DNA of 64,000 nucleotides from Halichondria panicea (taxonomy: Eukaryota > Porifera > Demospongiae > Suberitida > Halichondriidae). The position numbers and the translations under genes were made by a program. The notes below the pieces were generated by a model. It did no database searches. It saw only the letters and a program-made list of their open reading frames with translations, and had not been told where the DNA came from. The stretch is taken from positions 4,875,963-4,939,962 of the forward strand of contig NC_087382.1 of the NCBI RefSeq assembly GCF_963675165.1. Reading direction: 5' to 3'. Shown piece after piece: positions 9,897 to 64,000 of this stretch; the first letter of the stretch is position 1; every line of letters begins with the position of its first letter.

Positions 9897-10633
9897 ATTA
9901 TGTACCAAGGTGTGATTGTAAAAAATGCTGATTAATTAATAAATGAATTTATTCTGCTATATATATACGAAAGAATCTTTATGGTCGGTTCCCTGTCTTT
10001 ATATCTGTGCATGCATGTGACAAAATAACTTCATCACAATTTTTTTTATGCATATGGCATATGCATGATATTTACATAATCATATAACACCGTATTAAGA
10101 CTACTGAATGTTTTGCGAGCATAAACATTTGCAAACTTTGTGATATAATTAATTTATAGTTGATCAATAATTATTTGCAACAATAAAATCCGCAAAACCT
10201 AAATACTAGTAAATATGCACTATCCTTGCCAGAACGCGAGATCGCAAAATTAACGGGTCAAATTATCTGCCGAATTGGCTAATTCGCAAAACTATATAGG
10301 TTTTTTACCCGCAAAATATTCTAGTAATATTGTATTATTATATATAGCTAATAATTATACGTATATACATCACTGTCATAATACCTGCATGCATACATGT
10401 ACATGTATTTTATAGTGTCATACAAAATTACTTGCATGTTTTGATATTAATTTTACATGCAGACTGATATATATAATTATACATCAATCATAAATTAGAA
10501 CACACTTACAAAATCATAAAAAAGAAGGACCATACATCGACGAATTATAACTACACATAGACCTAAAAACTAAAATTTTATAAGTATATGAATGTTCTCT
10601 ATAAAACGGTAACACGTACAGTTAATTTCTCCT
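9897..10633. other. Convergent 3' intergenic region between SLC4 and the 14-3-3 array
   Basis: AT-rich DNA with no coding signal. It holds the family-1 MITE at 10089-10330, where the tandem duplication begins, and presumably both 3' UTRs. Confidence 0.6.
10089..10330. mobile_element. MITE family 1 copy at the left edge of the 14-3-3 duplication
   Basis: It starts ACCGTATTAAGACTACTGAA and ends ATTCTAGTAATAT, with the family-1 body between. It is longer than other copies through internal insertions. Homology between the two 10-kb duplication units begins inside its right end, at about 10319. Confidence 0.8.
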
Positions 10634-14069
<3,436 letters not shown>

Positions 14070-14465
14070 TGTGTGTTTCTTAGCTGCTAGCACCAAGCTG
14101 TTCCCAGTCTGTAGTCGATCTAGTCTGTGTCTTGATAATTAATTTTTACGCTGCAAGTCAATAATGGGTGTGACTGTCCTCCACCCACTGGCATCCAGAC
14201 ACGCCCACTATATAACGGTCTCTATGACCCGCCGCTGGCATGATCGAGGCAGGCACACCATGCATGTTACATATTGCACTCTCACAAATAATATTTAATA
14301 ATATGAATTGGACCGTACAAATACAAGTATATGTAATCACAAGTGGCTACAATAGTTATTATAGCTTTAGTATAGAATAATACGAATAATAATATGAAAG
14401 CTAGAAAATTCAATTGAGTTATACTTAAATTAATTTAAACTAGTAATCCGTTGCATATACGGTCA

Positions 14466-17003: not shown

Positions 17004-17333
17004 CTTGGCTTGATATTTATGACAGCTAAAAATATCTCTTGTTCTGTTGTTGTACACACAACACACACACATTGATAATTTGACAGACTTTGGGCGAGGC
17101 TAAAAGGGGCGTTCCCAAATGACCTCACATAAGAGTGACGCAACAGTAATTATTAATTTTAATTAAGATATTTATACACTAGACTACCTTATAGCCAGCC
17201 ACAACAACTTGTATATAATTAATACACTCAGTCAACTTTGATTACAAAACGTTATAAGAACTAGTTTGTCTATACACTCTAAAGAATCTCAACATAATAA
17301 TTTATGCATGTGCAATAATAGTAGCAGGGACTT

Positions 17334-19152
<1,819 letters not shown>

Positions 19153-19532
19153 ATTCAGTACGAGTAATAAAGAGAAAGAGAGAGAAAGAGAGAAACGTTC
19201 TGTTCTTTGAGCGCTATTAGTGCAGTACTGTGATGTTCACATGTACATGTAGGTGTGGCTGATACAACACACATAGTGGGCGTGGTTAAAACCTCCCTGT
19301 AAAACGTGATATTGACTGACGTCATAAACAAGTGTGTATACTGACACACCCTATGCATACAATGGGCACATTGAGAAACGTCATAACAGTCCAAGAATAT
19401 TAATTAAGTTTAAGTTCACGTCACACAAAGTATATTATAATGTGTCATAATTATGTCTATACAAGCAATAAATGTACACCACCCTAGAGGATAATTATAA
19501 CTAAGTCATGTGAAAATAGTGTTTCAGAAACG

Positions 19533-20072
19533 CTAATTCTGGGGCTCCTCTTCCTCCTCTCCTTGCTGATTCTCAGACGTCCAAAGCTGTATAAAAAAAG
19601 CAGCCATAAAAATAGAGCATTTCTATAGAGACTATACACATCCTCTACAGGAGCAGTGATTCGTTTCCCCAGTACACAAAGCATGGATACAGTCATTCTA
19701 CAAAAAGCACTGTCATGACTATACAGTACAGCACACATGTGACAAATAAGAAGGCACTGATCACTTACAGTGAGATTGTCCCTAAGGAGCTGCATGATGA
19801 GAGTGCTGTCTTTGTAAGAGTCCTCTTTCAGATTGTCCAACTCCGCAATAGCATCATCAAATGCCTGTAAAAAACAACTAGTGTGATACTGCCATAAACC
19901 AATCTGCTCACCTTTTTAGCAAGCTCACAGGCTTTGTCTGGCTTGTTTGAAATCTCGTAGTAGAACACGGAGAAGTTGAGAGCCAGACCAAGTCGGATGG
20001 GGTGGGTGGGTGGCATTTTATTAGTGGCAGTGGTGTTGGCATCCAAATATGCCTGAGAAGCATTTTCCACAG
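19533..20072 (-). pseudogene. 14-3-3 paralog D, 3' half only (exons 4-6)
   Basis: Exons 20072-19912, 19864-19769 and 19586-19533 match the last three exons of the complete D gene at 29500-31583 ([27 protein letters not shown], tail [17 protein letters not shown]). Exons 1-3 are absent: upstream on the minus strand come a MITE and then gene A'. The fragment is a by-product of the tandem duplication and has no start codon or promoter of its own. All its splice sites and phases are intact, so it could serve as an alternative 3' exon set for transcripts reading through from A'. Without such splicing it is a pseudogene. Confidence 0.85.
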
Positions 20073-20114
20073 CTGTGTGTGTGGCAGAGTAGTACATATG
20101 TAGTTACGAGCAAA

Positions 20115-20310
20115 TACCGTATCACTAGAGTGTTTTGCGAGCATCAAACATATGCGAACTTTGCGAGGGTTGATCTAATAAAATCGCAAAACCTAGTAAA
20201 TACACACGATCCTTGCCCGAACGCAATAGCTAGATCGTAAAACAGTCAAGTTTTCTGCTGATTTGGCTCATTCGCAAAGGTTTTTCGCCCGCAAAATATT
20301 CTAGTAATAT
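20115..20310. mobile_element. Hybrid MITE family 1 copy at the duplication junction
   Basis: From TACCGTATCACTAGAG through CCCGCAAAATAT it matches the copy at 30082-30265. After that, TCTAGTAATAT and the following flank match the copy ending at 10330. The switch occurs in or next to the shared CCCGCAAAATAT. Confidence 0.85.
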
Positions 20311-20569
20311 ATTATACGTATACATCACTGTCATAATACATGCATGCATGTACATGTATTTTATAGTGTCATACAAAATTACTTGCATGTTTCGATATTA
20401 ATTTTACATGCAGACTGATATAATTCATAATTATAACACACTTACAAAATCATAAAAAAGAAGGACCATACATCGACGAATTATAACTACACATTAACCT
20501 AAAAACTAAAATTTTATAAGTATGTGAATGTTCTCTATAAAACGGTAACACGTACAGTTAATTTCTCCT

Positions 20570-24040
<3,471 letters not shown>

Positions 24041-24432
24041 TGTGTGTTTCTTAGCTGCTAGCACCAAGCTGTTCCCAGTCTGTAGTCTAGTCTGTGTCTT
24101 GATAATTAATTTTTACGCTGCAAGTCAATAATGGGTGTGACTGTCCTCCACCCACTGGCATCCAGACACGCCCACTATATAACGGTCTCTATGACCCGCC
24201 GCTGGCATGATCGAGGCAGGCACACCATGCATGTTACATATTGCACTCTCACAAATAATATTTAATAATATGAATTGGACCGTACAAATACAAGTATATG
24301 TAATCACAAGTGGCTACAATAGTTATTATAGCTTTAGTATAGAATAATACGAATAATAATATGAAAGCTAGAAAATTCAATTGAGTTATACTTAAATTAA
24401 TTTAAACTAGTAATCCGTTGCATATACGGTCA

Positions 24433-26970
24433 TCACTGATCTTCCCCAGCATCATCGTCACCGGCATCTGCTGTCCACAACTGCAGATAAGAAAACATAC
24501 CCTTGATTCAAACAAGTAATATTATAACAATGTTTCTGACTCCCCCCAAAACTTACTAACTTACTACATAATGTACATTGTATAAAGCCTCTCCACAAAT
24601 GGAAAATGTCACGTATGTTGCCAACTCAATGCCCATTAATCAGAGATTTGTATTATACAGAGTACAAACTGCTACACAACACACCACAACATATACAGAG
24701 GTTTATGGCTATCGTACAATTATGTATTATTATAATTATATCAAAGTTACAGACTTGCACATGCATACAATTGAGACACCAGATACACTTAGACATAGGC
24801 TATTAATCTTTTAGAGCTACTATATGCAAAGTGATGAGAAAGTGAGTTCCAAAGGGGGTGTCAGTACACTCTACAAACCATAACTATGCTTCACTTACAG
24901 TGAGGTTGTCCCTAAGGAGCTGCATGATGAGAGTGCTGTCTTTGTAAGAGTCCTCCTTCAGAGTATCCAGATCGGCAATGGCTTCATCAAATGCCTGAAA
25001 TAGTTAGAACGACATACACAGAGAGCCTACATAAATTGTACCGAGAAGATATTTTGAGGCTACATGTATGTACAGCTGTAGACTTCAGAAAGCACCCACT
25101 AATCTTCTGTACATGCACTGAATTCTCAAATCTTCAACAAGTATACTGTACATGACCATGTGTGTGTTAGTATACCTTTTTAGCAAGCTCACACGCTTTG
25201 GTTCTGTTATCAGCAATCTCGTAGTGGAACACGGAGAAGTTGAGAGCCAGACCTAGTCGAATGGGGTGGGTGGGTGACATCTTCTCCTCGGCAAACTTAG
25301 AAGATTTTTCATAGGCCTTTTTAGCGTTTTCCACGACTGTATTAACAAAACAAGAGCTGTACGTAATTTTAATGACTGGCAGATTGAAACAAGACATTAT
25401 TACAAATGTGATGTGTTTTAGAATACATTTATACACAACAAAACCAATATCACATTGGATAGCCACACTTGGAAACACACACTGACAAACTATTCAGAGC
25501 TCATGTGTACTGAAGATTAGATCAGTACCGAGACAATCGAATAAACTTACCATCTTTTTTTCCTTCTCCGTCTGTAACTTCGGCAATATAACGATAGTAG
25601 TCGCCCTTCATCTTGAGGTAGAACACCTTGGACTCTGCATCGTCTGTGTCTTCTTTAACGAGGTGATCGTCAAGGAGAGCCTATAATTTTATTAGACAAC
25701 ATGTGGAGAGAGTAATAATTAAACGAGTCAAAAATGCCTATAAATTATATAAGTATATTAGTAAGTACTTGTACTGTGTAACAGTGGAACTCCTCTCTTA
25801 ATGGCCACGCCTGAATAAAGATCACTACGCAGGTTGCAATTACGATAGGCACTCAAGTCCCAAATGAATAGTATGTGTACAAAACAATCAACAGAGGCCA
25901 CCTACATGTATGTACACGTAGTAATAATTATAATGGTCGTTATATGGGAGGGGGGGGTTCACTATGTGCTGTATACGTACAACATGTGGTGTGTGCACAT
26001 GTAGACATGCTAGCTTTACACTAATAGCCTCGCGTAAAACAATGACTATCTGGTAGTGGGTAATGGCAGGAAAGAGCCTATCTTGCAACGAGGAGATTAG
26101 ATAGGACATACATTGATCAACTTACAATAACTTCATTACAAAGGTCATTAAGCTCCTTCTCAACGATGCCAATGTACTCTTTTGTAACATCAGTTGGGTT
26201 CTTTGAATCAATGCTGGACAACACTCTCCACGCATTTCGACGAGCACCGACTATGTTCTTGTAGGCCACTGAAAGTAGGTTCCTTTGGTTGGAATCTAAC
26301 TTTACCCCAGAGTTTTTCACCACGTAGCTTTTCATTGCCTGAAGTGTGCAAATTGAAAAATTGTGAGAGCACGCTACAAAAAGGCTATAATTATATACAC
26401 ACGTAATGTACGCATGCAGCATGACAAGTGTGTCACCTTGGGTCAGCTCATAGTTTAGCATGCAGCTATAAGTATATAGGTATAAGACAAGCGTTAAGTG
26501 TACGTACATGTGTATTTGTCGTAAGGTGACCTGTTAATACATACTTTGAGAAAACAATAGTTTGTATAGGCACAGATTAGGTGGGTGGGATTACCACCTA
26601 CCATATTCACGACGCCACTAAATAATTCCGTTTATGAGACGTTATAATATAAATAGTATGTACAAGAAAAGACTAACATGTCCCGAGCTCGAGTGTACTG
26701 CACACATTAGTTATGACCCACTGTATATTAAAACTAAAAGCACTTGGCACATTGTATTAATACACAAACCATGTCACCATTCGTTGAGTTGAGTTGACTT
26801 TAGTTACCTAACTACAGCATGCAGTACAGTGAACACAACTTTAGTAATCACATTCAGCCCTTGATACATGTCAGACATTGATACAACCCTACCTGTGCCA
26901 TGTCTTCATATCTCTCAGACTGCTCAGCCAGCCGGGCTCTGTCTAGAAGGGCATCGGTATCATTAGACAT
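24433..26970 (-). CDS. 14-3-3 protein, paralog B' (copy of B)
   Basis: Direct copy of gene B at an offset of 9967 bp: exons 26970-26893, 26338-26126, 25680-25551, 25336-25176, 24994-24899, 24480-24433. Its translation and introns appear identical to B, so it encodes the same 241-residue protein. It is intact, with all splice sites retained. The identity implies very recent duplication, gene conversion, or an assembly effect. Confidence 0.95.
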
Positions 26971-27300
26971 CTTGGCTTGATATTTATGACAGCTAAAAAT
27001 ATCTCTTGTTCTGTTGTTGTACACACAACACACACACATTGATAATTTGACAGACTTTGGGCGAGGCTAAAAGGGGCGTTCCCAAATGACCTCACATAAG
27101 AGTGACGCAACAGTAATTATTAATTTTAATTAAGATATTTATACACTAGACTACCTTATAGCCAGCCACAACAACTTGTATATAATTAATACACTCAGTC
27201 AACTTTGATTACAAAACGTTATAAGAACTAGTTTGTCTATACACTCTAAAGAATCTCAACATAATAATTTATGCATGTGCAATAATAGTAGCAGGGACTT

Positions 27301-29119
<1,819 letters not shown>

Positions 29120-29499
29120 ATTCAGTACGAGTAATAAAGAGAAAGAGAGAGAAAGAGAGAAACGTTCTGTTCTTTGAGCGCTATTAGTGCAGTACTGTGA
29201 TGTTCACATGTACATGTAGGTGTGGCTGATACAACACACATAGTGGGCGTGGTTAAAACCTCCCTGTAAAACGTGATATTGACTGACGTCATAAACAAGT
29301 GTGTATACTGACACACCCTATGCATACAATGGGCACATTGAGAAACGTCATAACAGTCCAAGAATATTAATTAAGTTTAAGTTCACGTCACACAAAGTAT
29401 ATTATAATGTGTCATAATTATGTCTATACAAGCAATAAATGTACACCACCCTAGAGGATAATTATAACTAAGTCATGTGAAAATAGTGTTTCAGAAACG

Positions 29500-31583
29500 C
29501 TAATTCTGGGGCTCCTCTTCCTCCTCTCCTTGCTGATTCTCAGACGTCCAAAGCTGTATAAAAAAAGCAGCCATAAAAATAGAGCATTTCTATAGAGACT
29601 ATACACATCCTCTACAGGAGCAGTGATTCGTTTCCCCAGTACACAAAGCATGGATACAGTCATTCTACAAAAAGCACTGTCATGACTATACAGTACAGCA
29701 CACATGTGACAAATAAGAAGGCACTGATCACTTACAGTGAGATTGTCCCTAAGGAGCTGCATGATGAGAGTGCTGTCTTTGTAAGAGTCCTCTTTCAGAT
29801 TGTCCAACTCCGCAATAGCATCATCAAATGCCTGTAAAAAACAACTAGTGTGATACTGCCATAAACCAATCTGCTCACCTTTTTAGCAAGCTCACAGGCT
29901 TTGTCTGGCTTGTTTGAAATCTCGTAGTAGAACACGGAGAAGTTGAGAGCCAGACCAAGTCGGATGGGGTGGGTGGGTGGCATTTTATTAGTGGCAGTGG
30001 TGTTGGCATCCAAATATGCCTGAGAAGCATTTTCCACAGCTGTGTGTGTGGCAGAGTAGTACATATGTAGTTACGAGCAAATACCGTATCACTAGAGTGT
30101 TTTGCGAGCATCAAACATATGCGAACTTTGCGAGGGTTGATCTAATAAAATCGCAAAACCTAGTAAATACACACGATCCTTGCCCGAACGCAATAGCTAG
30201 ATCGTAAAACAGTCAAGTTTTCTGCTGATTTGGCTCATTCGCAAAGGTTTTTCGCCCGCAAAATATGCTAGTGATACGGTACTCTAATATAAATGCAAAG
30301 TATAGTGCTGTTGTAAAGGAGTCTATAATATTATACAGCTATAGCTCTACGGGATTGATAGCGGAGACATGTTAGTAGCAAACACTTGTGTGTGCATTGA
30401 AACACCGTGTTCATACATGTAACATACCATACAGTAAGCGTACATGTACATTGTACTTGCGCTTGCATCAAAAGTGTGTCTTGCTTACACAAATAATGCG
30501 GAGTTTCATCTAGTGGGGGGGGGGGGGGGGTGAACCTCCTCCCTCAAATTTTGTAAAATAATGACATCAAGACATTGGCTAACGTGATTAACTCAACTAA
30601 GCCAAACTTTTGCAGCGTGCTTACGTGCGCCCAAATCCCCCCCCCCCCAACTTTATAACCTAGATGAAACCAACCCTAAAGATATACGGTGTACACGTGG
30701 GAATACTACACAGTTACCAAGACTACGTACCCCAATAACAGCTCTGGCCTATTCGCAAGGCACTGTTTGAGAAATCCCAAATATACATGAGTTACAAACA
30801 CGTAGTATATACCTGCTGTTTTGTCGTCACCAGTTGCAACCTCAGCAAGGTAACGGTGGTAGTCGCCCTTCATCTTGAGGTAAAACACCTTAGACTCAAC
30901 GTCTTTCTCGGTCATGTCCTTTTCTTCCTCTTTAGTATCTTTGCTAATGAGATACTTTGAAAGCAGATTCTGCAGGACAAGTTAATAAGAACGTGACAAA
31001 GTATGCTTTGGGATGGTGTTGGTGGTTTCGTGGGAGGATATGATACTGTGGGTGACTATTGATACAGTAGTATGGGGGAGAGAGAGAGTGGTATAATGGA
31101 AAGGCAGTGGGAGATAATTGGAGACAAATAATATTAACTTACGATCACTTCACCACAAATGTTTTTTAGCTCTTCCTCAATTGTGATCTTATACTCCTTG
31201 ATAACTTCCCCTCTTGCACTGCTGGCATCCGCCTTCTGTTCCATGCTAGAGACCACTCTCCAAGCACTGCGGCGAGTCCCAACAACGTTCTTGTAGGCCA
31301 CAGACAACAAGTTTCTCGATTCAGATGACAATTTTCCCTCGTTTTCAACATATTCCTTCATTGCCTGGGTAAAATGTAAAAGCACGTTGAATCGTAAATA
31401 CTACACACAGGAATCGATAGTAGTACGTGTTCGTGTTCGTACAGTTAAGTTACCACATGTGCCCATAGAAAGTACATTGAATACCTACAACACATTCACA
31501 CTGTAGCTAGCTACCTTTGCCATGTCCTGGTATCTTTCAGCCTGCTCAGCAAGCTTAGCTCTTTCTATCAGAGTATCAGCCAT
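29500..31583 (-). CDS. 14-3-3 protein, paralog D (complete copy)
   Basis: Complete D gene. Exons: 31583-31515, 31364-31143, 30969-30813, 30039-29879, 29831-29736, 29553-29500; 252 residues, the longest of the array. It starts [20 protein letters not shown] and is the most conventional 14-3-3: [67 protein letters not shown] keeps both groove Arg residues. Intron 3 holds a family-1 MITE (30082-30281) and a fold-back with G/C runs. Exons 4-6 lie inside duplication unit 2 and exons 1-3 outside it, so this is the ancestral locus. Its start faces the start of the plus-strand membrane-protein gene 307 bp away. Confidence 0.95.
30082..30281. mobile_element. MITE family 1 copy in intron 3 of 14-3-3 D
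   Basis: It runs from TACCGTATCACTAGAG to GCTAGTGATACGGTA, with both inverted ends recognisable. It marks the right-hand boundary of the 10-kb duplication. Confidence 0.85.
30492..30671. repeat. Fold-back with long G-run and C-run
   Basis: GTTTCATCTAG followed by about 18 G lies opposite a run of about 12 C followed by CTAGATGAAAC, about 180 bp apart. It is an inverted-repeat element of unknown family in intron 3 of D. Confidence 0.6.
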
Positions 31584-52400: not shown

Positions 52401-53103
52401 TACGCGTATACATGTACAATCGTACATTCCCATTGTACTACATGTAGTTGCATACATGTATATCCATGTTAATGCTTGCTTGTAATAATTATGTTTATGT
52501 TAATTATACTCAGCGTTTTTGATTTTGAAACGATTTGTCCTGTTTATACTGACTGTCGTTTTATGTGTAATTAAATGCAGGTGAAATCTCTGATTGCTGA
52601 GTGTAAATCCTTTGCCGATAAAGATGTCACCCCTTTTTCTAATCTCGTCAGTAAGCTGGATTCTGTCTACCAGGCCCTAGCCGGAGGTCGAAGGTCACCG
52701 AAGGGTAGTATCGCTGATAAAAGATCTGTTAGCATGGACCCTGAAGCTGCCAAAAGAGATTATACCAAACCAATCAGCAGAGCATTCAGCATTGATGTCG
52801 GAGGTCAAAGGTCGTTCAGTGACGGTACTGAAGATCCAAAGGTACTTCAGGAAGTGTGTACTCTGCATTCTACGCTGGAGAGCAAGTGGGGAGCATTTGA
52901 GAAAGACTTCAAGAGATACTCGACAAAGATGGATCTGTCACTCAAGTTTAATGAGGTTATCTTCGAGGTGAGTGTATGTGTATGTGTGTGTGTGTGTATG
53001 TGTGTGCAAAGGAGGTCCGACATATGCGTGCACGAATCACTACAAGTTCAGTGCATTGATGTTATTGCAGTTACGTGATAACGTCCAGGCCAAATACAAG
53101 TAG
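39436..53103 (+). CDS. Trio/Kalirin-like protein: SEC14 domain plus spectrin repeats, no GEF module
   Basis: Exons: 39436-39577, 42271-42345, 43199-43310, 43653-43857, 44417-44533, 44913-45144, 45709-45806, 46052-46213, 47274-47465, 47738-48016, 48356-48482, 48805-49061, 49401-49769, 50115-50468, 50771-51082, 51556-52287, 52581-52967, 53071-53103. All phases join to 1394 residues ending in TAG. After about 47 disordered residues comes a CRAL-TRIO/SEC14 domain (residues about 48-217: [32 protein letters not shown], then [10 protein letters not shown]). The rest is spectrin-like helix bundles with signatures such as [20 protein letters not shown] and [20 protein letters not shown]. Ser/Lys-rich linkers interrupt the rod at about 1090-1200 and 1290-1330. 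This order is that of the Trio/Kalirin N-terminus, but no DH-PH exons follow; the last exon encodes [10 protein letters not shown] then stop. SESTD1-type proteins also have SEC14 plus spectrin but are shorter. Confidence 0.85.
39578..42270. other. First intron of the Trio-like gene
   Basis: 2.7 kb, the largest intron of this gene. I see no exon or recognisable repeat until the CA tract at 42093. Enhancers could sit here, but nothing specific is visible. Confidence 0.6.
42093..42270. repeat. Long imperfect (CA)n microsatellite forming a 3' splice tract
   Basis: About 180 bp of CA with CACG and CACACC interruptions, ending in CACAG at 42266-42270, the acceptor for Trio-like exon 2. Confidence 0.9.
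42711..42775. mobile_element. MITE family 1 fragment
   Basis: CTGCTGATTTGGCTTATAAT through CGCAAAATATTGTAGTA matches the right end of family 1. The left part is missing. Confidence 0.6.
45230..45378. repeat. 149-bp imperfect palindrome
   Basis: GGCTTAGCCCAGAGGAG on the left and CTCCTCTGGGCTTAGCC on the right are exact complements, and inner GGTCAAAAGGTCTTA pairs with AAGACCTTTTGACT. It lies in an intron of the Trio-like gene. Confidence 0.75.
46775..46916. repeat. Two adjacent hairpins, including a GGTCCGACATG fold-back
   Basis: A short hairpin (TCTCAACCTTACC / GGTAAGGTTGAGA, 46775-46833) is followed by a fold-back at 46848-46916 with ends GAGGAGGTCCGACATGCG and CGCATGTCGGACCTCCTC. The second belongs to the same family as 2242-2355 and 53010-53133. 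Confidence 0.75.
49313..49400. repeat. (CA)n microsatellite forming a 3' splice tract
   Basis: The CA repeat continues into CACAG at 49396-49400, the acceptor of Trio-like exon 49401-49769. Confidence 0.9.
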
Positions 53104-53133
53104 TAATTCATACACGCATGTTGGACCTCCTCT
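53010..53133. repeat. Fold-back element overlapping the last exon of the Trio-like gene
   Basis: Ends are GGAGGTCCGACATATGCG and CGCATGTTGGACCTCC. The left part also matches the fold-back at 46848 (ACAAGTTCAGTGCATTGATG). The putative terminal exon 53071-53103, with its acceptor and TAG stop, lies inside it in extra sequence that the 46848 copy lacks. Confidence 0.75.
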
Positions 53134-53812
53134 CAGCGTCACTGGTGTGTGTGTGTGTGTGGTTTTCTGACCTATCACTGCATGTGTGCTCATGTCATGT
53201 ATATAATATGGTGTTTGTAAGATCAACTTATTATAACATGTACGGTTAAAGTTGAGTTGTTTATTTTTCAAGTGTTGTATTTGTTTCTTCATGACTACAA
53301 TGTGTGCTCACTTTGGTATAAAAAGGTGTTTGTAAGACTGATAACGTATAGACTACATTTATAACGTGAGGTGCTCATTTTTTATAAGCATCTTTAATTA
53401 ATTTCAAGTCGATCTGTAGGAATCTTTTTAGCCCGGCCCTTAATTAATACATTTCTTATGTGGTACGTTCCGTACCGTATTACTTTTTGCTGGTGAAAAA
53501 CCTTTGCGAATGAGCCAAATCAGCAGAAATTTTGACCTTTGCTATCTAACTATTGCGTTATGGCAATTAAGGACCGTGTGTATTTACTATTAGGTTTTGT
53601 GATTTTATTGTTGCAAATTGATCAACCCTCGCAAAGTTCACAAATGTTTGATGCTCGCAAAACATTCTAATGTAAGGAATTGCTTGTTTCTACTAGCTAA
53701 CATTAATGGTTGTTTAAATACATACAGTAGACTAACTAAAACTAAACTCAGTTTTTATGCACTATCTATAGTGTTAATGCAGTGTCTTTCACTTCTTCTG
53801 AGGCTTCACATT
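53104..53812. other. Convergent 3' region between the Trio-like gene and Calx-beta gene 1
   Basis: No coding signal. It contains the rest of the fold-back and a family-1 MITE at 53473-53670. I looked for RhoGEF (DH) domain exons here on the plus strand and found none. Confidence 0.6.
53473..53670. mobile_element. MITE family 1, inverted copy
   Basis: It begins TACCGTATTACTTTTTGCTG and carries the family body in reverse orientation (TTGCGAATGAGCCAAATCAG), ending GCAAAACATTCTAATG. Confidence 0.8.
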
Positions 53813-55087
53813 TCATTTTTTCGATCGTTTTTTCACCAGTACAACTATTAGTATGGTTGCTGCTGCAATTGCAAGAAGGACAATGACAACTGAACCGACC
53901 GCTATTCCAGCAATGTCACCAGCTTCCAGACCTTTTTGTGTGTCTGTGTGCATGTGTGTGAATAAGAATCTTAAAAATATATTTTTGTGAATTATCCTTA
54001 ATCTTGTATAATGTCAGTTACATACATTGCCGATCTTATTGGTTATTCTAGCATTACCTTATAGTATACACACCTGTAGTGACAATTTTTATTGTGAGCA
54101 ATCCACTAGAAATTTTCACATTGCTGGCAGATGATGTTAGGTTAAGTGTCTCTAAGATTGTCTCTCCTATTGAGACAATCTCTAGAATAGTGACATTTAC
54201 TGTTAGTAGGTTTTTTCCACTCAGAAGCTCAATTTCTCTGTTAGCAACTGTGTTTAAGATTTATAACAAACACTTTTATTATTAACATAATAGGTACATA
54301 CTTGATGCTGTATTTGAAGATTCCAGTTGAATTGTTGTGGTATCGCCTTCAGCAATATTCCCTGTGACACTTACTTCAACCTCAAATGTAGAATTAGAAG
54401 GGCCAGGACTTATTTCTATCTCATCCTTAGTGAAACCTACTGATACTGCATGTATGATTGTACATTTGGAAAGTCAGCTTGCATTATTATATCAATGCAT
54501 ATGCAAGTATGATTTATTGAGTAGCGAATGATTTCATAATCATTACAGTAAACCCACCTGCAATAGTTATCGTAACTTTTGGTGAGAAGAGTGCCAGAGT
54601 GTTATTATCAATTTTACTGAGCATAAGTGAAAACGTGTTTCCTTTAGTAGCATTTGTGAGTATTTCAACACTGACAGATTGTGACAGATCTCCGCCTGGA
54701 CTGAATGTGATAGGTTCATTTACCCTCTTATAGTCTTCACCCTCTATTGAGAATTAAGAAATATACTGAATGCATGTACTGAATCCAGATATTGTGGTAT
54801 ACCTGTTGCCGTTTCATCTGTAGAGGTACACTGAACAGATTTGGTCATGTTGAGCGCTCCATTTGTCACATCAAGTATTACAAAAACTGTCACCGTAGAA
54901 TTAGCGCTTGCTAGTATCGCTGTCTTGTTAAACCCTATGGAAACTACACAGTGCAGATATAATTATATATATGGTTTGTGTGAATCATACCAATTGAAGT
55001 CATAATTATATATATCTTACCTTCAGCATTAGTGTGTTGTATGGAAAGTAAAGCTATAATAGCTGCAACGACAATGATAGACTTCAT
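53813..55087 (-). CDS. Type I membrane protein with two Calx-beta-like domains (gene 1)
   Basis: Exons in transcription order: 55087-55021, 54934-54803, 54743-54558, 54439-54302, 54247-54074, 53943-53813; 275 residues. The signal peptide is MKSIIVVAAIIALLSIQHTN. Domain 1 spans exons 2-3 and shows the Calx-beta pattern: VGF-like start (GFNKTAIL), STVTVFVIL, TSTDETATEGEDYKRV, then ITFSPGGDLSQSVSVEI. Domain 2 spans exons 4-5 (VGFTKDEIEIS, TFEVEVSV) and is more divergent. The last exon encodes a linker, one membrane segment (IAVGSVVIVLLAIAAATILI) and the short basic tail VKKRSKK. Every intron is phase 1, so domain halves are modular. Several N-glycosylation sequons fit an extracellular location. 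Adhesion or recognition is a guess; the ligand is unknown. Confidence 0.8.
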
Positions 55088-56275
55088 GTTTCTTCAGCTT
55101 TTCTTCAGTAATGCGATGAATGAGTTGGTTGCAATGCCTAGCAGACACTTGCTTTATATAAGAGGCTTTCGTTTGCTATTTGTTATCGTTCAATTTCCGT
55201 CTCTAATTTAGTACCTGTTGTATTTAATAGCTCACCGATAAATTAAACTGAGAAACATGAATAGTCTGAAACTGAAAATATAACACCTTAAACTGAAAGA
55301 GGATGTGTAACTGTTTGATAGTAGATTACATCGATCTGAAATTAGTTTTAATTCTCATTTATTACCCTAAGCGCGTTAGCGGCCAGGGGTATAGTAGTAC
55401 GTTGGTTTGTTTGTTTGTAATATGCCAGTATACTCACCTGGATGCCACAGCACTGCGTTTACAGCATGGTTAGCCTTCACACAACAAGTTATTAGTTTTA
55501 AAAGTGGCAGATTTCAATATTAAATCTTAATTCATTGTCGTTTAAAAGCGAGCAAAAGCTAAGGCGCTAAGAAACTTTGCACTAAGAAGCTTTGCACGTT
55601 GCCTAGCTCTACACGCGACCTTCATTCGAGGTAGATGTATATAATTATTTGCAGCTGAAGTGATCCTTTACCGATCTCTATTAAAAATAGAATTGTAGGT
55701 TGTTGCTTCTTTACTCCTCTGAAAAATCTATTTATTCCTGTCAACAGCCGATGGTTAGCACTTCAGTGCTCTAGTTATAAAGTTAATGCCACTAAAAAGT
55801 TTCACTCTGCATCATAGGGAGTGGGCTCATGTATGGCAACAATTAATCGCGAGGTCCTGTAATTATAGTGCTTGTACATGTATATATATGTAAGATCGTC
55901 TTTTGTGTTCGCCATCTATACATAATTTTATGTATGCAGGCAGGCTCCCCCTCTATATATAGTACAGCCATGCATGCAGGTTATACAATGTACAATCATG
56001 CGTGTGTTTCATTGGACTAATTTGCCAGTATAGATAATAATTATTATGCTTGTAATCGTGCACTAGTCTGCATGGGTACACTTAACGGTCATCCCATTAT
56101 ACAAGTCAAAAGTTATGTACATGCAACTGTTCATATGCAATACACAAAAAAAAGAATATTTACTGTAGCATGTATACTATGTGCATGCAAGCGGCTATAT
56201 AGCACAACTATATACACATGCATCCAGTCACACTATTCATACACAGTCTTCAATGTCTACAACAATGTCATTAGT
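55088..56275. other. Intergenic region between Calx-beta genes 1 and 2
   Basis: No exon is recognised. At 55365-55640 there is a repeat-like segment (TACCCTAAGCGCGTTAGCGG ... CTACACGCGACCTTCATTCG), unclassified. Confidence 0.5.
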
Positions 56276-58063
56276 CTATTTATGGCCTCGTAAAGCTTCT
56301 TTTGAGCAAAGGGTGACGATTATGGCTATACCCAACAGGACGAGGAAGATTCCAGCAACTATAGCTACAGCACAGCTGATGATTGCAATTTTCTCAGCAG
56401 GGGATAGGTCTGTGTGTGTGTGGTGTGTATGTGGTGTGGGTGTAGTTTTAGTATCACAAATGCTGAATTTATTGTTCATTAAGTGATGGTTCTACAATAA
56501 CAGGTCCACTAAATTAACTTAGCTATGTACTTTCAATTCGACGGCTTACCAATGTAAACTCTGTATCTCGGTCAATAAGAGCCATTCGTGAGTCATGTGT
56601 TAATAGAGTGAGCTCAAATGTTTGTCCTGCTCTTGCATGTGATGGGATTTTAAAACTCACGTCAGCCGTTGTGTAATTTTGACTCAGTGTAATTGTTTGG
56701 AAAACCTGCATATGGGTATTGCAATAACAGCCATTCGTGAATAGAATGAGCTCAAACGTTTGTTCTGCTCTTGCGGGATTTCAAAACTCACGTTGTAGTA
56801 ATAGTCCGTTGTGTAGTAGTTCGTTGGGTAGTTTTCTTCATATATACCATAGTCTGACGAATGTATACATGCAGTAAAGTTATCATCTTTATACACGTAT
56901 ATATAGTACCTGTTACGAGTTGCATAGATGTGCATGAAATTATAGCAAATAGTTCTAAATTTCTATTTAGCACTTTCACTGTAGCAGTCACAGTAGATCC
57001 TGCGTACCCTCTTATTTCAGATCCAGTGAAGCCGACATTCACTGCAGTTGATGCATGTGGAAAGTGTCAGGTTCTATTGCATGTGTTATCTAGCTTACCA
57101 ATTATGCTAACACGAATAGTCCGTGCATTAGGGTCAATACGAGCCGAATATGTTGATATGGAAGATAAATGAAGGTAAAATGTTTGTCCTGCTGTGGCAT
57201 TTGAATTGATCCATACTGAGACGTTGCTCGAAGTTTCACGTGGTGCCAGCGAAATACATCCATTGATACGTTTGTAGTCAAAGTTATCTGTACATAATTA
57301 TGTTATATGGTTCATGAGAGATTGGCATTCGCATGCACAGATTGCATAAAGTGTTACCTTGAGCCGTTCCGTCTTGTGAATAGTAATACATAGATGTATA
57401 ATTCTGCAATGTCCCACTTATCACTGCCACTATAGCAGTTACAGTAGATCCTGGGTACCCTCTTATCTCAAATCCAGTGAAGCCGACATTCACTGCAGTT
57501 GATGCATGTGGAAAATGTCAGGTTCTAATGCATGTGTTATCTAGCTTACCAATTATGGTAATACGAATAGTCTGTGCATTAGGGTCAATACGAGCCCAAT
57601 AATTATGTTGATGAGGAAGATAAACGAAGGTAAAATGTTTGTCCCTCTGTGGCATTTGAAGTGATCCATACTGAAATGTTTCTCAAGTTTCATGTGGTGC
57701 CAGTGAAATATATCCATTGAAACGGTTGCAGTCAAAGTTCTCTGTACATATATTGTGGTTCATGAGATTGGCATTCGCATGCACAGATTGCATAAAGTGT
57801 TACCTTGAGCTGTTCCGTCTTGTGAATAGTATCTTATATATGGATAATTCTGCAATGTCCCACTTATCACTGCCACTGTAGCAGTCACAGTAGATCCTGC
57901 GTATACCCTCTTATATCATATTCAGTAAAGCCGACAGTGACTGCATGCAGACATACAGAGAATTGCTCATTCAATAGTTGCTATAACTTTCATGCGTAAC
58001 ACACAAACCTTGAGCGGTTGCTTGCTTGAAAGCTAACAATATTAGAACTGTTAACAGGATCAT
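56276..58063 (-). CDS. Calx-beta-like type I membrane protein (gene 2), partly decayed
   Basis: The signal-peptide exon is 58063-58009 (MILLTVLILLAFKQATAQ). An intact domain is encoded by 57492-57358 (VNVGFTGFEIRGYPGSTVTA ... SQDGTAQ) and 57287-57099 (NFDYKRINGCISLAPRETSS, NATAGQTFYLHLSS). A further first-half exon is 57041-56910 (VNVGFTGSEIRGYAGSTVTA). The membrane exon is 56409-56276: DLSPAEKIAII, a hydrophobic stretch GIFLVLLGIAIIVTL, then CSKEALRGHK and stop. These exons are all phase 1 at both ends. Exons at 57940-57804 and 57741-57550 carry frame breaks and must be skipped, which preserves frame. The second half of the third domain (56550-56870) is a messy tandem duplicate that I could not join in frame. 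The gene may be active through exon skipping or be a decaying pseudogene. Confidence 0.6.
56550..56870 (-). pseudogene. Duplicated, rearranged Calx-beta second-half exons of gene 2
   Basis: Two tandem versions of one exon (ADVSFKIPSHARAGQTFELT in 56550-56705; YNVSFEIPQEQNKRLSSFYS in 56706-56870). Neither can be joined to the neighbouring phase-1 exons without a stop or phase clash. Confidence 0.55.
57550..57940 (-). pseudogene. Broken Calx-beta domain (two exons) inside gene 2
   Basis: Exon 57940-57804 matches the intact 57492-57358 exon but has two extra bases (GGGTATACGCAGG versus GGGTACGCAGG in the family), bringing an early TGA. Exon 57741-57550 matches 57287-57099 but reads HET then TGA. 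Splice sites survive, and both exons are phase 1-1. Confidence 0.8.
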
Positions 58064-58679
58064 CTTTCTCAAATTTTAAATTGTAGCTGAAAATTGCTGG
58101 ACCAACTATTATACGTACCAAATGTTTATTTATGCATGTACATGCATGTACGTCATGCATGCTTACTGATTAGTATACTCATCAAATACATTGTGAGAGA
58201 GTAAATTGTAAAGTGATTTCCAAAAACATTTGAATTTCCGTGTACAAATACTAACTGTGCAGCTTACAAGAATAATCATATCTCTTGTATTTATTACCAA
58301 GTCACCCCAAAGGTAGCGTTACAGCTTTCATAATCAACTTAGCTTGTGCATGGCTTGTGTATATGCAGTGGTCATACATGCAGTATTAATGCATGCATAC
58401 TACTACTGAAAGAGGTATATGAGTTTTAGCTACTAAATAAATGCGTTACCCTACTATAATGAATTTTGCCAGCTCCCACTGTGCTAATACCCCTTGGCAT
58501 GTTTTACTTTGCTTAGGGTGTATAGAAAAGGACATTAGTTTGCTTTAATGTGTATATTACACTGCATGCATATGCAATAATTTTTGAACAAATTCCAAAC
58601 AATTCAGAGGTGTAATGCAGTATTGTAGAGGAGCTTAATGAAACAAAATAATGTCTAATGGCTAGAGATGATCTTTAAT

Positions 58680-59095
58680 CTTCAAAGCGTAGGTGTTGTT
58701 GCATTTCCTGTCAATGAATAATTAGAAACAGGTGGATCTGCAAAGAGGTCAAGAGTTCACAATGGTTTGCTTCTGCTTCTGGCATACAGCTTTGCAGCTA
58801 GCTCTTTTCCAAGTCTTGTAGCTAACAAAACGCTAGGCGCTTTAGTGCGAGGCTACTCATAAGTTGAGTAGAAAGCTTGTATTAACAGATGTTGCTGACA
58901 AAAGATTCTGAAGAGACTGTAATAGCCTTCACTGTAGCCATAACTCGAGACAGTTTGCAAATCCACGAGTCAAAGTATATAGAAGCTGTTAGCATTGCAA
59001 CCGTTGAGCAGTTATATACAGCTAGAACAAATACCGCATACACAGTCAGCTTTACCGTATATCTCGTACGGCTACACTTCAAGGTATAATTAGTT
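58680..59095. repeat. Interspersed repeat also found at 62520-62930
   Basis: Shared phrases include GTAGCTAACAAAACGCTAG, CATTGCAACCGTTGAGCAGT and CAGTCAGCTTTACCGTAT, with many differences between the copies. It has no coding capacity in either copy. The class is unknown. Confidence 0.6.
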
Positions 59096-59231
59096 CATTG
59101 CCCCCAGGCCAGAAATTGCATAGAGTTACAAAAAAACACCTGAGCAGTAAAAAAAGAATAGTAATTTAGTTCACTATAAATTATATAAGCCAGTAAAAGA
59201 AATTATCAAGTCCACACATTTTTTTAATTAA

Positions 59232-60105
59232 CCTCAGGGGAACTCTGTTCTATTGTGGGCAGTATCACAAATGACTATACCTTTGAAGTGTTCAGAGGAT
59301 GCTCCATTGTTAGCTCAATCGAGCGATGAAGAGGCATTAAATCTTTGTAGCTGTATAGTTACGTTGTGCATCAATCTCCAATCTGTGCATGCATTTACAA
59401 TGTACCGTATTTACTTGATTAAACGCCCTCCTTGAATAAACGCCCATCTCGTTTAAACGCCCAGGGTAAAAGCTGTCTTTGCCAATAAACGCCCATCTTA
59501 AATAATCGCCATGTATGGGGCGTGGCACTGTGGGTGGAGTTGAGATAGCACATGGAACCCAGTTGCAAGCATTGCAGCATAGAATAATAATACTTTTTAT
59601 GATGCATCGATGGCAGAGAGAGAGATACCGACACAGAGGACACTCCTATGACTTAAATTTAAGCAGCTGAGACAGCAGCCCAAGAAGAACACAATAACTG
59701 CTACTGTGCAAGAGTTTTGGAGTAGACATAACAATAAATGCCCTCCTGGATTAAACGCCCTCCTCGTTTAAACGCCCCCTCTAAAGACTTCGATCTGAAA
59801 TGAACGCCCGGACGTTTAATCAAGTAAATACGGTATATACATGGTAGATAATTATGCACTTTGAAGTGTTAAACTATAGTCTTGTAAAATAGTCCCCAAG
59901 TTTCGTAAAATTTGGGGATAAGCACCCTTATTTGTGTTTATTTGGCAGTGGTATGTATTTGGGTTACCTATATAGCAGATTCATTTTCAGATGTAAGCAA
60001 GAGTTTCACTGTATCATTTGGGCCTAAAGTTCCTTCTATCACTCCCACCGTGATATCTATTGTTGAGCCTGGGATTACTGATACCTCCCCAAACATGTAA
60101 ATGAA
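59232..60105 (-). pseudogene. Relic of a Calx-beta membrane-protein gene related to gene 3
   Basis: Segment 59232-59345 matches gene-3 exon 61404-61210 in part (TTTGAAGTGTTC and GAGCGATGAAGAGGCATTAA on the plus strand). Segment about 60105-59969 matches gene-3 exon 63450-63295: it translates VIPGSTIDITVGVIEGTLGP and NDTVKLLLTSEN but reads into TAG next to the donor. The 433-bp MITE is inserted between the two segments. No signal-peptide or membrane exon was found nearby. Confidence 0.7.
59403..59835. mobile_element. MITE family 3 (ends TACCGTATTTACTTGATTAA)
   Basis: 433 bp with long inverted ends (TACCGTATTTACTTGATTAA; TTAATCAAGTAAATACGGTA) and repeated AAACGCCC motifs inside in both orientations. 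It lacks a transposase and is inserted in the relic Calx-beta gene. Confidence 0.85.
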
Positions 60106-60597
60106 TCCAATAATCACTCCTATTTATAAACATATATACGACTGACTTAAGTGCTATACAGTACTGTTACTGTGTTATATACCATTGACATGCTAGTACT
60201 GTCACTATATTATAGGAAGATTGTAACATGACGTATGTATGTATAATTATGAATGAAGTACATGTAGTAACCGTATAGTATAAATTAAAGGTACATTTTA
60301 ACCTTGAGAAGTAGTAGGTTCTATGACACACAGGCAACTATGTGAGTTGTCTTCGTAGTTTGCTTCTGACTTGCGAAACAGTAACAGTGTCTTTTGAGGC
60401 GTATGCAACTGGTCCACAGTAAACCTTTCCTTATTTGTTGTGTAGGTACTCTTCACAATACGTATTAGTCATGTCTAATACACTATAATTTAATGTGTTG
60501 TGTAACACTGTACTTTTAATTATATGCTTGCTGAACTGCTGATAACTATATCCAATTTGTATAGGAAGCAAGTCACTTCCTATAGTGTGCAGATAAT

Positions 60598-60829
60598 TAC
60601 CGTATAGCGCGAAATTTTCGAGGGGCTTAATTTTCCTGGATTTCGTGGGTTAGCAATCCTACACAAAAATTAAGTCCACGAAAATTTTTCTTTAATTAGA
60701 ATTATCTGCTATAACGTGCAAATATTTAAAGTCCTTTAACAGTCATTCCGCGAACATTGTGTAGCAAAATGCTTTTAGAGGCCAATCCACAAAATATAAG
60801 TACCTCGAAAATTTTCACGCTATACGGTA
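60598..60829. mobile_element. MITE family 2, inverted relative to 9668-9896
   Basis: Starts TACCGTATAGCGCGAAATTT and ends TTTTCACGCTATACGGTA; the internal sequence matches 9668-9896 in reverse. Confidence 0.85.
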
Positions 60830-61007
60830 TGTTCCCATATTGCACGCCCATATATTATTGCTTGCACTCTGAACATTTTATGTAAAAGTATACTAACAAA
60901 ATCGTGCCATCCCAATACACATATATACATACTGACAGGCAATAATTATTGCAACTCTCTAGGTATAGGTGTAGGTGTTCGCCTCATGCTAGTCCATGAA
61001 TATTTAC

Positions 61008-63584
61008 TTAAATAGGTGCCAGTTCCATCAGTGTTCTTCTTTTTTTCATTTTGTAGATAATGGGCGCTATTCCTCCTACTGCTGCTATTAATGCAGCAAA
61101 TCCTACGAGATAGGCAATGTAGGTACACGCATCATCAGGCACACCTGCATATGTTGGTAAACACACTGTATTCAATATTATTGTTGAAAGAGTTAACTTT
61201 CTGACTTACCGGTTATTTTGATACTAAAAAAACCAGCAAACGTTACCACAACATCACCAGTTGAGTCAGTTTCTGGTGTCGTCAACCTCACGGGAAACTC
61301 TGTTCCCTCGTGGGCAGATTCACGGATGACTACCTTTGAAGTGTTCCGAGGGTGTACCATTGTTAGCTCAATCGGGCGATGAAGAGGCATCAAATCCTCA
61401 TTTACTGCATTAAATATATAATGAAGGGGGGGTAATTTCAGTAATGTATATATAGTACGTATAATATTATGCCGCCAGATTTGTTTGATGCTAAGCTTTT
61501 CCACACTGTAATTCACACGTACGTGCATGATTTTAGGCAACGACATCTATACGTAGCATTGGATGGTCAGAGTGAATTGTAGTACAAGTAAGCATTTTTA
61601 ACCCAGGCGTGTGGGCGGCCACGGATTATAGTGGTCGGCTGGTCTGTCTGACTGCCTCTTTGTTTGTTTGTCTGTGTGTTCTGCCTGTGGAGGCTATCCA
61701 TGCGTAAACGCAGTACTATGGCCATCCTCTTACACAATACTAATAGTGACTTTTCAGTTGACAACACTCTGAGTGATTACTACCTTGATACGTACGTATC
61801 TAGAAGGTGGTCCAAGGTTCATTATAGCCACACCCACTTTAAACGCTGTCCAATTCGTTAATCACTGTAAGAATTGTTACTTACCGTATTACTAGCGTGC
61901 ATCAAACATTTGTGAACTTTGCGATGGTTGATTAATTCTAAAATCCGCATTATTACTAGTAAATACACACGATCCTTGCCAGAACGCAATAGTTAGATTG
62001 CAAAGGGTCACATTTTCTGCTGATTTGGCTTATTTGCAAATGTTTTTCACCAGCAAAACATTAATTGTTACTGAGAATCACTGTGTTAATGAGTGTTGCA
62101 AGCGTGCGCTTGCTAATGCCTCTCGCCATGTTTTTGCTTTCGCTCAAAAGTATTAGAAGAGATAAATAATTTGCAATGTGCTTTGATTGTTTCACAAGAA
62201 AGGGGGGTCCACAGTTAATAGTGTATACTGATCGTCTTAAATGGCCTGTAGCCAAACAGTGGGAGTAAACCTTTGTCAAAGTCATAATCAGTAGTCTGTG
62301 AGATAAGTATTAAAGACAGAATTCAATCACAGAAAGTATTATCTACATGTATAACAAGCAGTCTAAAAAGAGTTATCAGAAAAGGTTGGTTTGTGGCTTA
62401 CCAGGACCTTGCAAAGAATAAAATTGCAGGATCTGGGGTTCAAAATGGTTTCTCTTACACTCGTGGTATGTAGCGCGCATGCGCATTACATCCAGGAATA
62501 AGGGGTGTGTCTGCAAGTTCACTAATGGCTACTAAAATAGCTAGCTTCTTTAGCAGCTCTTTCTGACTCTCGTAGCTAACAAAATGCTAGCGCTTTAGTG
62601 CAAGGTTAACTCATAAGTGGAATAGAAAGTTTGTGCGAACACATGATGCTATGAAAGATTTTGAAGAGACTGCAACAGCCTTCAATGTGAGTCAAACTAG
62701 CCTTAACTCGAGAAAGAAGCTTTAGTTTGCTAATCCATGAATCAAAATCCAAGAGAACGTGGCTAGAAGCCTATAGAAGCTGTTAGTTTTCGTCGCATTG
62801 CAACCGTTGAGCAGTTACAGCTGGAACAGACACACAGACACACACACACACACACACACAGTCAGCTTTACCGTATCCCTCGTGCGGCTACGCCTCGAGG
62901 CATAATCATGCTATGCGTTATTGCTCTGTTAGTTATACGGTATAATTACAATTTCGTGAACACGAAGTGGGATGGTCAGAATGCCTGCGTATAAAATTAT
63001 TCTACCCATGTATATAAATCTAATTTCAAAAGGGATATAATCCTAATTTTTGAAGCACTTCTATTTCGTGGAATGGCCTCTAAAAGCATTTCGTTGCACA
63101 ATGTTCGCGGAATGACTGCTTACCGGAAGCCACGCTTTTAAATCTTTGCACGTTATAGCAGATAATTCTAATTAAAGAACAATTTTCATGTAGGATTGCT
63201 AACCCACGAAATCCGCGAAAATTAAGCCCCTCGAAATTTCGCGCTATATGGTACATTAAAACCAGCACTCTTCATTGTGATAATATATTTTTACCAATAG
63301 CTGAGCCTGGTCCAGATGTCAATAACAGTTTTACGGTCTCATTGGGATGTAATCGTCCCTCTAACACTCCCACTGTGATTTCTACTGTAGACCCGGGGGT
63401 TGCTGTTGTCACACCAGACAAGTCAGTGAATCCCACCACCACTTCGTGCCCTGTGACATGACATTCACTGAAGTGCTTTACTTATGTAGATCTAGCTATT
63501 ACCAAGTTTCAGACTCTTACCTGCTTGAGTTCTTTCAGCCATGCTAAAAACAAGTAAACTTGCAAGAAGAATGAAAGCAGTCAT
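61008..63584 (-). CDS. Small type I membrane protein with one Calx-beta-like domain (gene 3)
   Basis: Four exons: 63584-63521, 63450-63295, 61404-61210, 61144-61008; 183 residues, all introns phase 1. The signal peptide is MTAFILLASLLVFSMAERTQ. Exon 2 has the first half of the fold (VVVGFTDLSGV, PGSTVEITVGVLEG, ETVKLLLTS). Exon 3 has the second half (LTMVHPRNTSKVVIRESAHE, GTEFPVRLTTPETD), more divergent from Calx-beta than gene 1. Exon 4 encodes VPDDACTY, one membrane segment (AYLVGFAALIAAVGGIAPII) and the tail YKMKKRRTLMELAPI. The large second intron carries two MITEs and an interspersed repeat. Surface adhesion or recognition is inferred from the architecture only. Confidence 0.75.
61882..62062. 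mobile_element. MITE family 1 copy in gene 3 intron
   Basis: It starts TTACCGTATTACTAGCGTG and contains ACACACGATCCTTGCCAGAA and CTGCTGATTTGGCTTATT. The right end is degraded. Confidence 0.75.
62520..62930. repeat. Interspersed repeat (copy of 58680-59095 family) with CA tract
   Basis: Shares GTAGCTAACAAAATGCTAG, GCATTGCAACCGTTGAGCAG and CAGTCAGCTTTACCGTAT with the 58680 copy. A (CA)n tract is inserted at about 62836. Confidence 0.6.
63035..63252. mobile_element. MITE family 2, degraded copy
   Basis: Same order of motifs as 9668-9896 (GGAATGGCCTCTAAAAGCAT, ATGTTCGCGGAATGACTGCT) and right end TTTCGCGCTATATGGTA. The left end is lost. It ends about 40 bp from exon 2 of gene 3. Confidence 0.8.
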
Positions 63585-64000
63585 ATTTAGTGTCTTGAGT
63601 TAGTCAGTATAATTATAGCAGCTGTATTAACCTCAGCTGTCATTTATACTCATCAACCTCATCAACCTCAAAAACCTCAGAGTGTTATCTAAAGCAGATT
63701 CATAGCCATCAAATTGTCGTAGTAAACAAACAATTTACACTTGTAACCACTGTGCAGAGACACGCATACGACACAGCTGCAGGATGTCACTACGTGTGTT
63801 GTATACTGGGTCACGTGAACGTTTCCAACCCCTTTCTCTATTTATGCCTCGGTCCGCATGTGCAAGCGAGGTATACAGTAGTGTGTTTGTGTGTGTGTGT
63901 GTGTAGACTGCTACAGCTGCTCAAGGATCAATGAAGTGTAAGTAAGAGTTTCTATAGGCTTCTAGTCATGTTTTCTTGGTGGATTTGCAAAATAATGCTT
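63585..64000. other. Right-edge sequence upstream of Calx-beta gene 3
   Basis: Presumed promoter and 5' flank of gene 3. It includes a short repeat CTCATCAACCTCATCAACCT near 63650 and a GT tract at about 63886-63904. No exon is seen. Confidence 0.5.

Follow-up and report, generated by a model that had tools for sequence, protein, structure and literature searches.

A small cluster of short Calx-beta-like genes with a membrane segment in the sponge Halichondria panicea

Results

A minus-strand cluster of short genes

We analyzed a 64,000-nucleotide (nt) stretch of the genome of the sponge Halichondria panicea (assembly GCF_963675165.1, contig NC_087382.1, positions 4,875,963 to 4,939,962 of the forward strand), referred to here as the window and numbered from its first nucleotide. 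On its minus strand, between 53,813 and 63,584, lies a cluster composed of two intact genes, g1 and g3, a damaged gene, g2, and one decayed fragment. The cluster is a real, small and odd gene family, and its parts are as follows.

53813..53943, minus strand: g1 exon 6, membrane segment and tail, ending in KKRSKK (gene model, hydropathy)
54074..54247, minus strand: g1 exon 5, second half of domain 2 (gene model, weak profile match)
54302..54445, minus strand: g1 exon 4, first half of domain 2 (gene model, weak profile match)
54558..54743, minus strand: g1 exon 3, second half of domain 1, loop with NAT sequon (gene model, Pfam)
54803..54943, minus strand: g1 exon 2, first half of domain 1 (gene model, Pfam)
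55021..55087, minus strand: g1 exon 1, hydrophobic leader; TATATAAA lies 71-73 nt 5′ of the ATG, with no control (gene model)
56276..56409, minus strand: g2 last exon, membrane segment and tail (sequence, hydropathy)
56548..56886, minus strand: g2 repeat 3, second half, duplicated and broken (sequence, alignment)
56910..57041, minus strand: g2 repeat 3, first half, frame open (sequence)
57099..57287, minus strand: g2 repeat 2, second half, intact (gene model, Pfam)
57358..57492, minus strand: g2 repeat 2, first half, intact (gene model, Pfam)
57550..57940, minus strand: g2 repeat 1, both halves, decayed by a 2-bp insertion, a stop and indels (sequence comparison)
58009..58063, minus strand: g2 exon 1, hydrophobic leader (gene model)
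59177..60117, minus strand: decayed g3-type fragment, halves at 60117-59971 (first) and 59346-59177 (second) (tblastn, alignment)
61008..61144, minus strand: g3 exon 4, membrane segment and tail (gene model, hydropathy)
61210..61404, minus strand: g3 exon 3, second half of domain (gene model, profile)
63295..63450, minus strand: g3 exon 2, first half of domain (gene model, profile)
63521..63584, minus strand: g3 exon 1, leader (gene model)

The first-pass annotation of this sequence described three related genes; the shared plan holds, but only g1 and g3 are intact. The g1 model has six exons and encodes 280 amino acids (aa), with a leader, two Calx-beta-like domains, one membrane segment and a short tail. 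The g3 model has four exons, 183 aa and a single such domain, and g2 follows the same plan with three. In each gene the leader exon comes first, paired exons carry the domain halves, and the last exon holds the hydrophobic segment and the tail, so the gene models bear out the earlier description of a leader, split domains, one membrane segment and a short tail. Every intron of the models is GT-AG and in phase 1 (5/5 in g1, 3/3 in g3). Peak hydropathy of the membrane segment is 3.4 in g1 and 2.2 in g3, and the short tail that follows has basic residues and no signalling motif evident by eye. Leaders were assessed by eye and by hydropathy; that of g3 is modestly hydrophobic, with no 19-residue stretch above 1.6.

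TATA-like sequences precede all three leaders (no control was run), and sequons number eight in g1, two in g3 and three in the g2 piece. An innate-immune or stress-induced role, in which these surface proteins would bind microbes or other ligands, could draw on both observations: the TATA-like sequences would fit restricted expression, weakly in view of the lacking control, and g1 has many sequons. However, the Pfam search found no partner domain of a known immune receptor in the three proteins, and we regard such a role as improbable.

The domains are Calx-beta relatives

Pfam PF03160 (Calx-beta) matches g1 once, at residues 19-127, which is domain 1 (E-value, E, 1.7e-11; 44.6 bits against a cut-off of 27), and also matches the g2 piece with the intact repeat (2.8e-8; 34.2 bits, same cut-off). 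The other two domains were compared with composition shuffles. Scored on a profile of the Calx-beta domains in this genome, 2 of 2000 shuffles did as well as g3 and 11 of 2000 as well as g1 domain 2; against a profile built from g1 domain 1 and g2 repeat 2, the counts were 0/2000 and 2/2000, respectively. The best matches in the PDB are Calx-beta domains of sodium/calcium exchangers (E 0.0008 with g2 alone, 0.00014 with a profile). When a profile of the four window domains was aligned to a profile of seven canonical domains, picked from 12 listed for this genome, the match had a probability of 96.9% and E 2e-10. The Calx-beta identity proposed earlier is thus secured by Pfam for g1 domain 1 and g2 repeat 2, whereas g3 and g1 domain 2 are linked weakly or by way of the family. 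As judged from these profiles the window domains are Calx-beta relatives, and their ectodomains are predicted to adopt a Calx-beta-like fold.

The acidic loop is absent from the window copies

Acidic residues of the Calx-beta loop bind calcium. As a reference we used a large Calx-beta array on contig C5, in which all 17 second halves or whole domains carry an acidic loop of the form D...E..E.F; none of the six window copies does. In the four aligned window domains, two loop residues are missing and a glycine stands directly before the last glutamate column. Five acidic columns are invariant in the seven canonical domains (E15, D53, D80, E84 and E87). E15, D80 and E84 are lost in all four window domains, E87 in three and D53 in one. 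In g1 domain 1 and g2 repeat 2, an N-A-T sequon sits in the loop. Because the acidic loop is absent from 6/6 window copies and shortened in the four aligned domains, calcium binding is probably reduced or lost.

A shared intron position suggests common descent with a large Calx-beta array

We read 16.4 kb of the C5 array and counted split domains in its first 8.4 kb. Most domains there occupy two exons, with the split at profile position ~47, directly ahead of the DY motif; one domain is unsplit. Of 11 second halves, 8 have a phase-1 acceptor at their start or close to it, and 8 of 9 first halves have a phase-1 donor candidate in the stretch examined; three of those eight candidates fall exactly one base past position 47, and donor candidates in other phases occur too. 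The window genes have their domain intron at the same profile position (~47) and in the same phase. Since a phase-1 intron splits the window and C5 domains at the same place, common descent of the window genes and C5-type split-exon Calx-beta genes is likely from these comparisons, and the cluster genes look like offshoots of this sponge's large adhesion genes. We are confident in the anatomy and descent of the small family as described here.

At its end, the C5 array encodes a C-terminal module of ~290 aa that has no Pfam match above cut-off and that we take to be the Wreath domain of sponge aggregation factors. The module has 82 matches in the genome, all on C5, C1 and C14; several of those on C1 have VWD matches at a distance of 1 to 12 kb. 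Large Calx-beta arrays with this module are very probably the aggregation-factor genes of this sponge, and their presence agrees with a sponge origin of the DNA. We also observed an expansion of large Calx-beta arrays (L065 and L066 on G000:C5; C5 7.15-7.59 Mb; C1 4.03-4.09 and 9.1-9.8 Mb; C14).

The first-pass annotation suggested looking for aggregation-factor genes in neighboring DNA. The window's contig, C6, holds none of the 82 C-terminal module matches, and none of the 21 VWD or 29 VWA matches at E up to 0.001. Because no module, VWD or VWA match lies on C6, we rejected linkage of the cluster to aggregation-factor-type genes on this contig at the thresholds used. The suggested kinship to aggregation factors therefore stands in part: the domains are Calx-beta relatives with the intron of the C5 array, but the genes are unlinked to such arrays, lack the acidic loop and form a tiny family at one locus.

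Search for relatives of the small genes elsewhere in the genome

Pfam yielded at least 155 Calx-beta matches in the genome; among the matches listed, one is on C6, ~2.5 Mb from the window. This search scored 150 of 645 candidates, the window exons are not listed in it, and its silence on other places is no evidence. A Calx-beta match at G000:C6:2382998-2383231 falls within a stop-free open frame of 10,065 aa, which is striking for an intron-rich animal genome.

With g1 as the query, 15 genome matches were returned, seven of them in the cluster; the other eight (E 0.001 to 0.33) comprise five on C17, two on C1 and one on C5. The C17 and C1 matches were rejected as relatives, as the alignments run mainly over the membrane stretch of other families, and the C5 match is a Calx-beta array. 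The g2 query gave nine matches, seven in the cluster and two weak ones in Calx-beta loci on C15, and all six g3 matches are in the cluster. A DNA search with the intact second-half exon of g2 recovered that exon and its decayed twin only. Within the sensitivity of these searches, the small family appears confined to one locus. Six other Calx-beta loci, at ~3.3 kb each, have at least two Calx-beta matches apiece and some frames with hydrophobic stretches; no membrane exon after the last Calx-beta domain is evident in them, though this survey was not exhaustive. Among the titles listed in literature searches, none concerned short Calx-beta genes of sponges with a membrane anchor.

The C17 region at 4.52-4.57 Mb (L050, L052, L053, L054 and L058) holds a tandem family of its own with a glycine- and valine-rich membrane segment. 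Nearby frames have repeated tyrosine motifs (NEAYG, EYSVI and NEAYVEI) resembling cytoplasmic tails.

Damaged and decayed copies

The first-pass annotation had noted decayed copies in the cluster, and we find them in g2 repeats 1 and 3b (the second half of repeat 3) and in the g3-type fragment at 59,177-60,117. The search for further family copies covered 104 kb, composed of the window and 40 kb to its right, and found none; reading frames were listed for the first 20 kb to the right, and the 20 kb after that were screened solely for family copies and Calx-beta. Repeat 1a of g2 has the 2-bp insertion, repeat 1b the stop and indels, and repeat 3b is duplicated and indel-bearing; because of these lesions, g2 is a pseudogene or would need exon skipping. 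Within g2, a unit of ~450 bp is tandemly duplicated (88.5% identity over 537 aligned columns).

Comparison of g3 with its fragment gave 0.29 nonsynonymous (dN) and 0.66 synonymous (dS) substitutions per site over 42 codons, where dN below dS suggests past constraint. For the g2 repeats, dN and dS are about equal (0.115 vs 0.100 and 0.125 vs 0.108), over 29 and 24 codons that are too few to read.

These results bear on two alternatives. Under the first, g1 and g3 would be the last open copies of a former family, with little or no present function, as the break in two of the three g2 repeats, the fragment and the 1.9-kb g3 intron with its repeat-like sequence could indicate. However, the six exons of g1 and the four of g3 have open frames and intact splice sites, and dN/dS between g3 and the fragment is below 1. 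We consider such a remnant unlikely. The second would make the cluster a self-recognition or aggregation-receptor locus, whose short membrane-bound modules would pair with each other or with the large Calx-beta factors and differ among individuals. The single-pass surface plan, a small cluster with decayed copies, the internal exon duplication and descent from the gene type of aggregation-factor-like genes would all fit. Still, there are just two intact genes at one locus, without linkage to aggregation-factor-type genes; the g3 comparison points to constraint instead of excess amino-acid change. For the g2 repeats, dN is close to dS, on few codons. We give this alternative the same low standing as the first.

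Predicted function of the g1 and g3 proteins

We propose, tentatively and at somewhat less than even odds, that g1 and g3 encode type I membrane glycoproteins serving in calcium-free adhesion or docking. Through duplication and loss, the small family would have arisen from the split-exon Calx-beta gene type on which the large aggregation-factor-like genes of this genome are also built; the leader would direct the protein to the cell surface, where one or two beta-sandwich modules would stand outside the cell, anchored in the membrane by one helix and a short tail. The ectodomain would need no calcium to act as an adhesion module, through contact or docking. We predict a calcium-free contact module as its most likely state because the acidic loop is gone and, in two intact domains, a glycosylation site is found there. 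Surface location, glycosylation, calcium independence and adhesion of both proteins are what we infer from their sequences; the adhesion or docking role by itself is possible and more doubtful than the proposal as a whole.

Several observations weigh against this sequence-based proposal. In Pfam, g3 has no listed match at E up to 10, and g1 domain 2 is without a separate Calx-beta match. The D...E..E.F pattern was picked once the sequences had been inspected, and decayed repeats supplied two of the six copies scored for it in the window; furthermore, g1 domain 2 keeps the last glutamate column (E87), and the D of DY persists in three of the four window domains. The splice-site counts in the C5 array had no shuffle control. 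Finally, the family may be decaying, because g2 is broken and one copy is only a fragment.

A bolder version, which we think improbable, would place the genes in the sponge Calx-beta adhesion system as a branch that is anchored in the membrane and independent of calcium. Having arisen from a secreted aggregation-factor gene type, they would be short receptors or partners that engage the large factors or one another and govern adhesion or compatibility. We know of no gene established for the receptor side of sponge aggregation. If g1 and g3 are surface-expressed, they would show an adhesion module of large sponge proteins turned into a short membrane protein without the acidic calcium loop, and could be tested as candidates for the membrane side of adhesion by aggregation factors. 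As decaying remnants, the genes would matter little.

Genomic surroundings

52968..64000, plus strand: probable RhoGEF-gene intron of 12,097 nt, ending past the window at 65,064, with the cluster antisense inside (phase-compatible donor and acceptor, downstream domains)

On the plus strand, an exon ends at 52,967 and an acceptor of compatible phase lies 12,097 nt on, past the window end. Beyond it, the plus strand has a RhoGEF match above cut-off (2.2e-7) and one below (0.0058), a PH match (0.00046, below cut-off) and an SH3 match (2e-8). Exons joined across the intron match the DBS-like spectrin family weakly (0.037, below cut-off). Because the splice sites are phase-compatible and RhoGEF, PH and SH3 matches follow on the same strand, the cluster most likely lies antisense in an intron of a RhoGEF gene that resembles DBS or Trio. 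Exons further left, which have no Pfam match above cut-off, would be part of this gene as well.

Two nearly identical frames (L031:7279-8202 and L032:300-1214), one of them a cathepsin L gene (Pfam 2.4e-87), are also antisense in the probable RhoGEF gene, with partial copies between the two (L031:9264-9999). At 10,345-30,276 the window contains a ~10-kb tandem duplication, in which 13,701-20,309 is 99.8% identical to 23,672-30,276, and 10,345-13,746 is 96.9% identical to 20,302-23,655.

Discussion

Comparison with known systems

Single-pass membrane proteins encoded in a cluster with pseudogenes recall the Alr genes of the Hydractinia allorecognition complex, which PMC11067881 describes as highly polymorphic members of the immunoglobulin superfamily at no fewer than 41 loci. 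The H. panicea cluster differs in having two intact genes, few beside the Hydractinia complex in that account and a further point against self-recognition, and in its Calx-beta-like domains. No animal immunoglobulin family matches the window proteins in Pfam at E up to 10; the bacterial Ig-like family Big_8 matches g1 at 0.051, below its cut-off. For sponges, PMC5450542 describes Amphimedon grafts in which aggregation-factor-mediated adhesion genes were without significant enrichment.

With the large arrays on C5, C1 and C14, the window genes share Calx-beta domains and a phase-1 intron at the same place. The arrays have many domains, whereas the window genes have one to three plus a membrane segment and hence are not large secreted arrays; they also lack the C-terminal module, VWA and VWD, and are on another contig. 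On these features they fall outside the aggregation-factor family, though the exon plan is common to both. Compared with the Calx-beta domain itself (PF03160), known from the sodium/calcium exchanger and integrin beta-4, the window domains are alike in sequence profile and, as far as the alignments show, in strand order, and differ in that the acidic loop is shortened and lost. The short membrane-anchored Calx-beta genes of H. panicea are thus a new variation on a known domain type.

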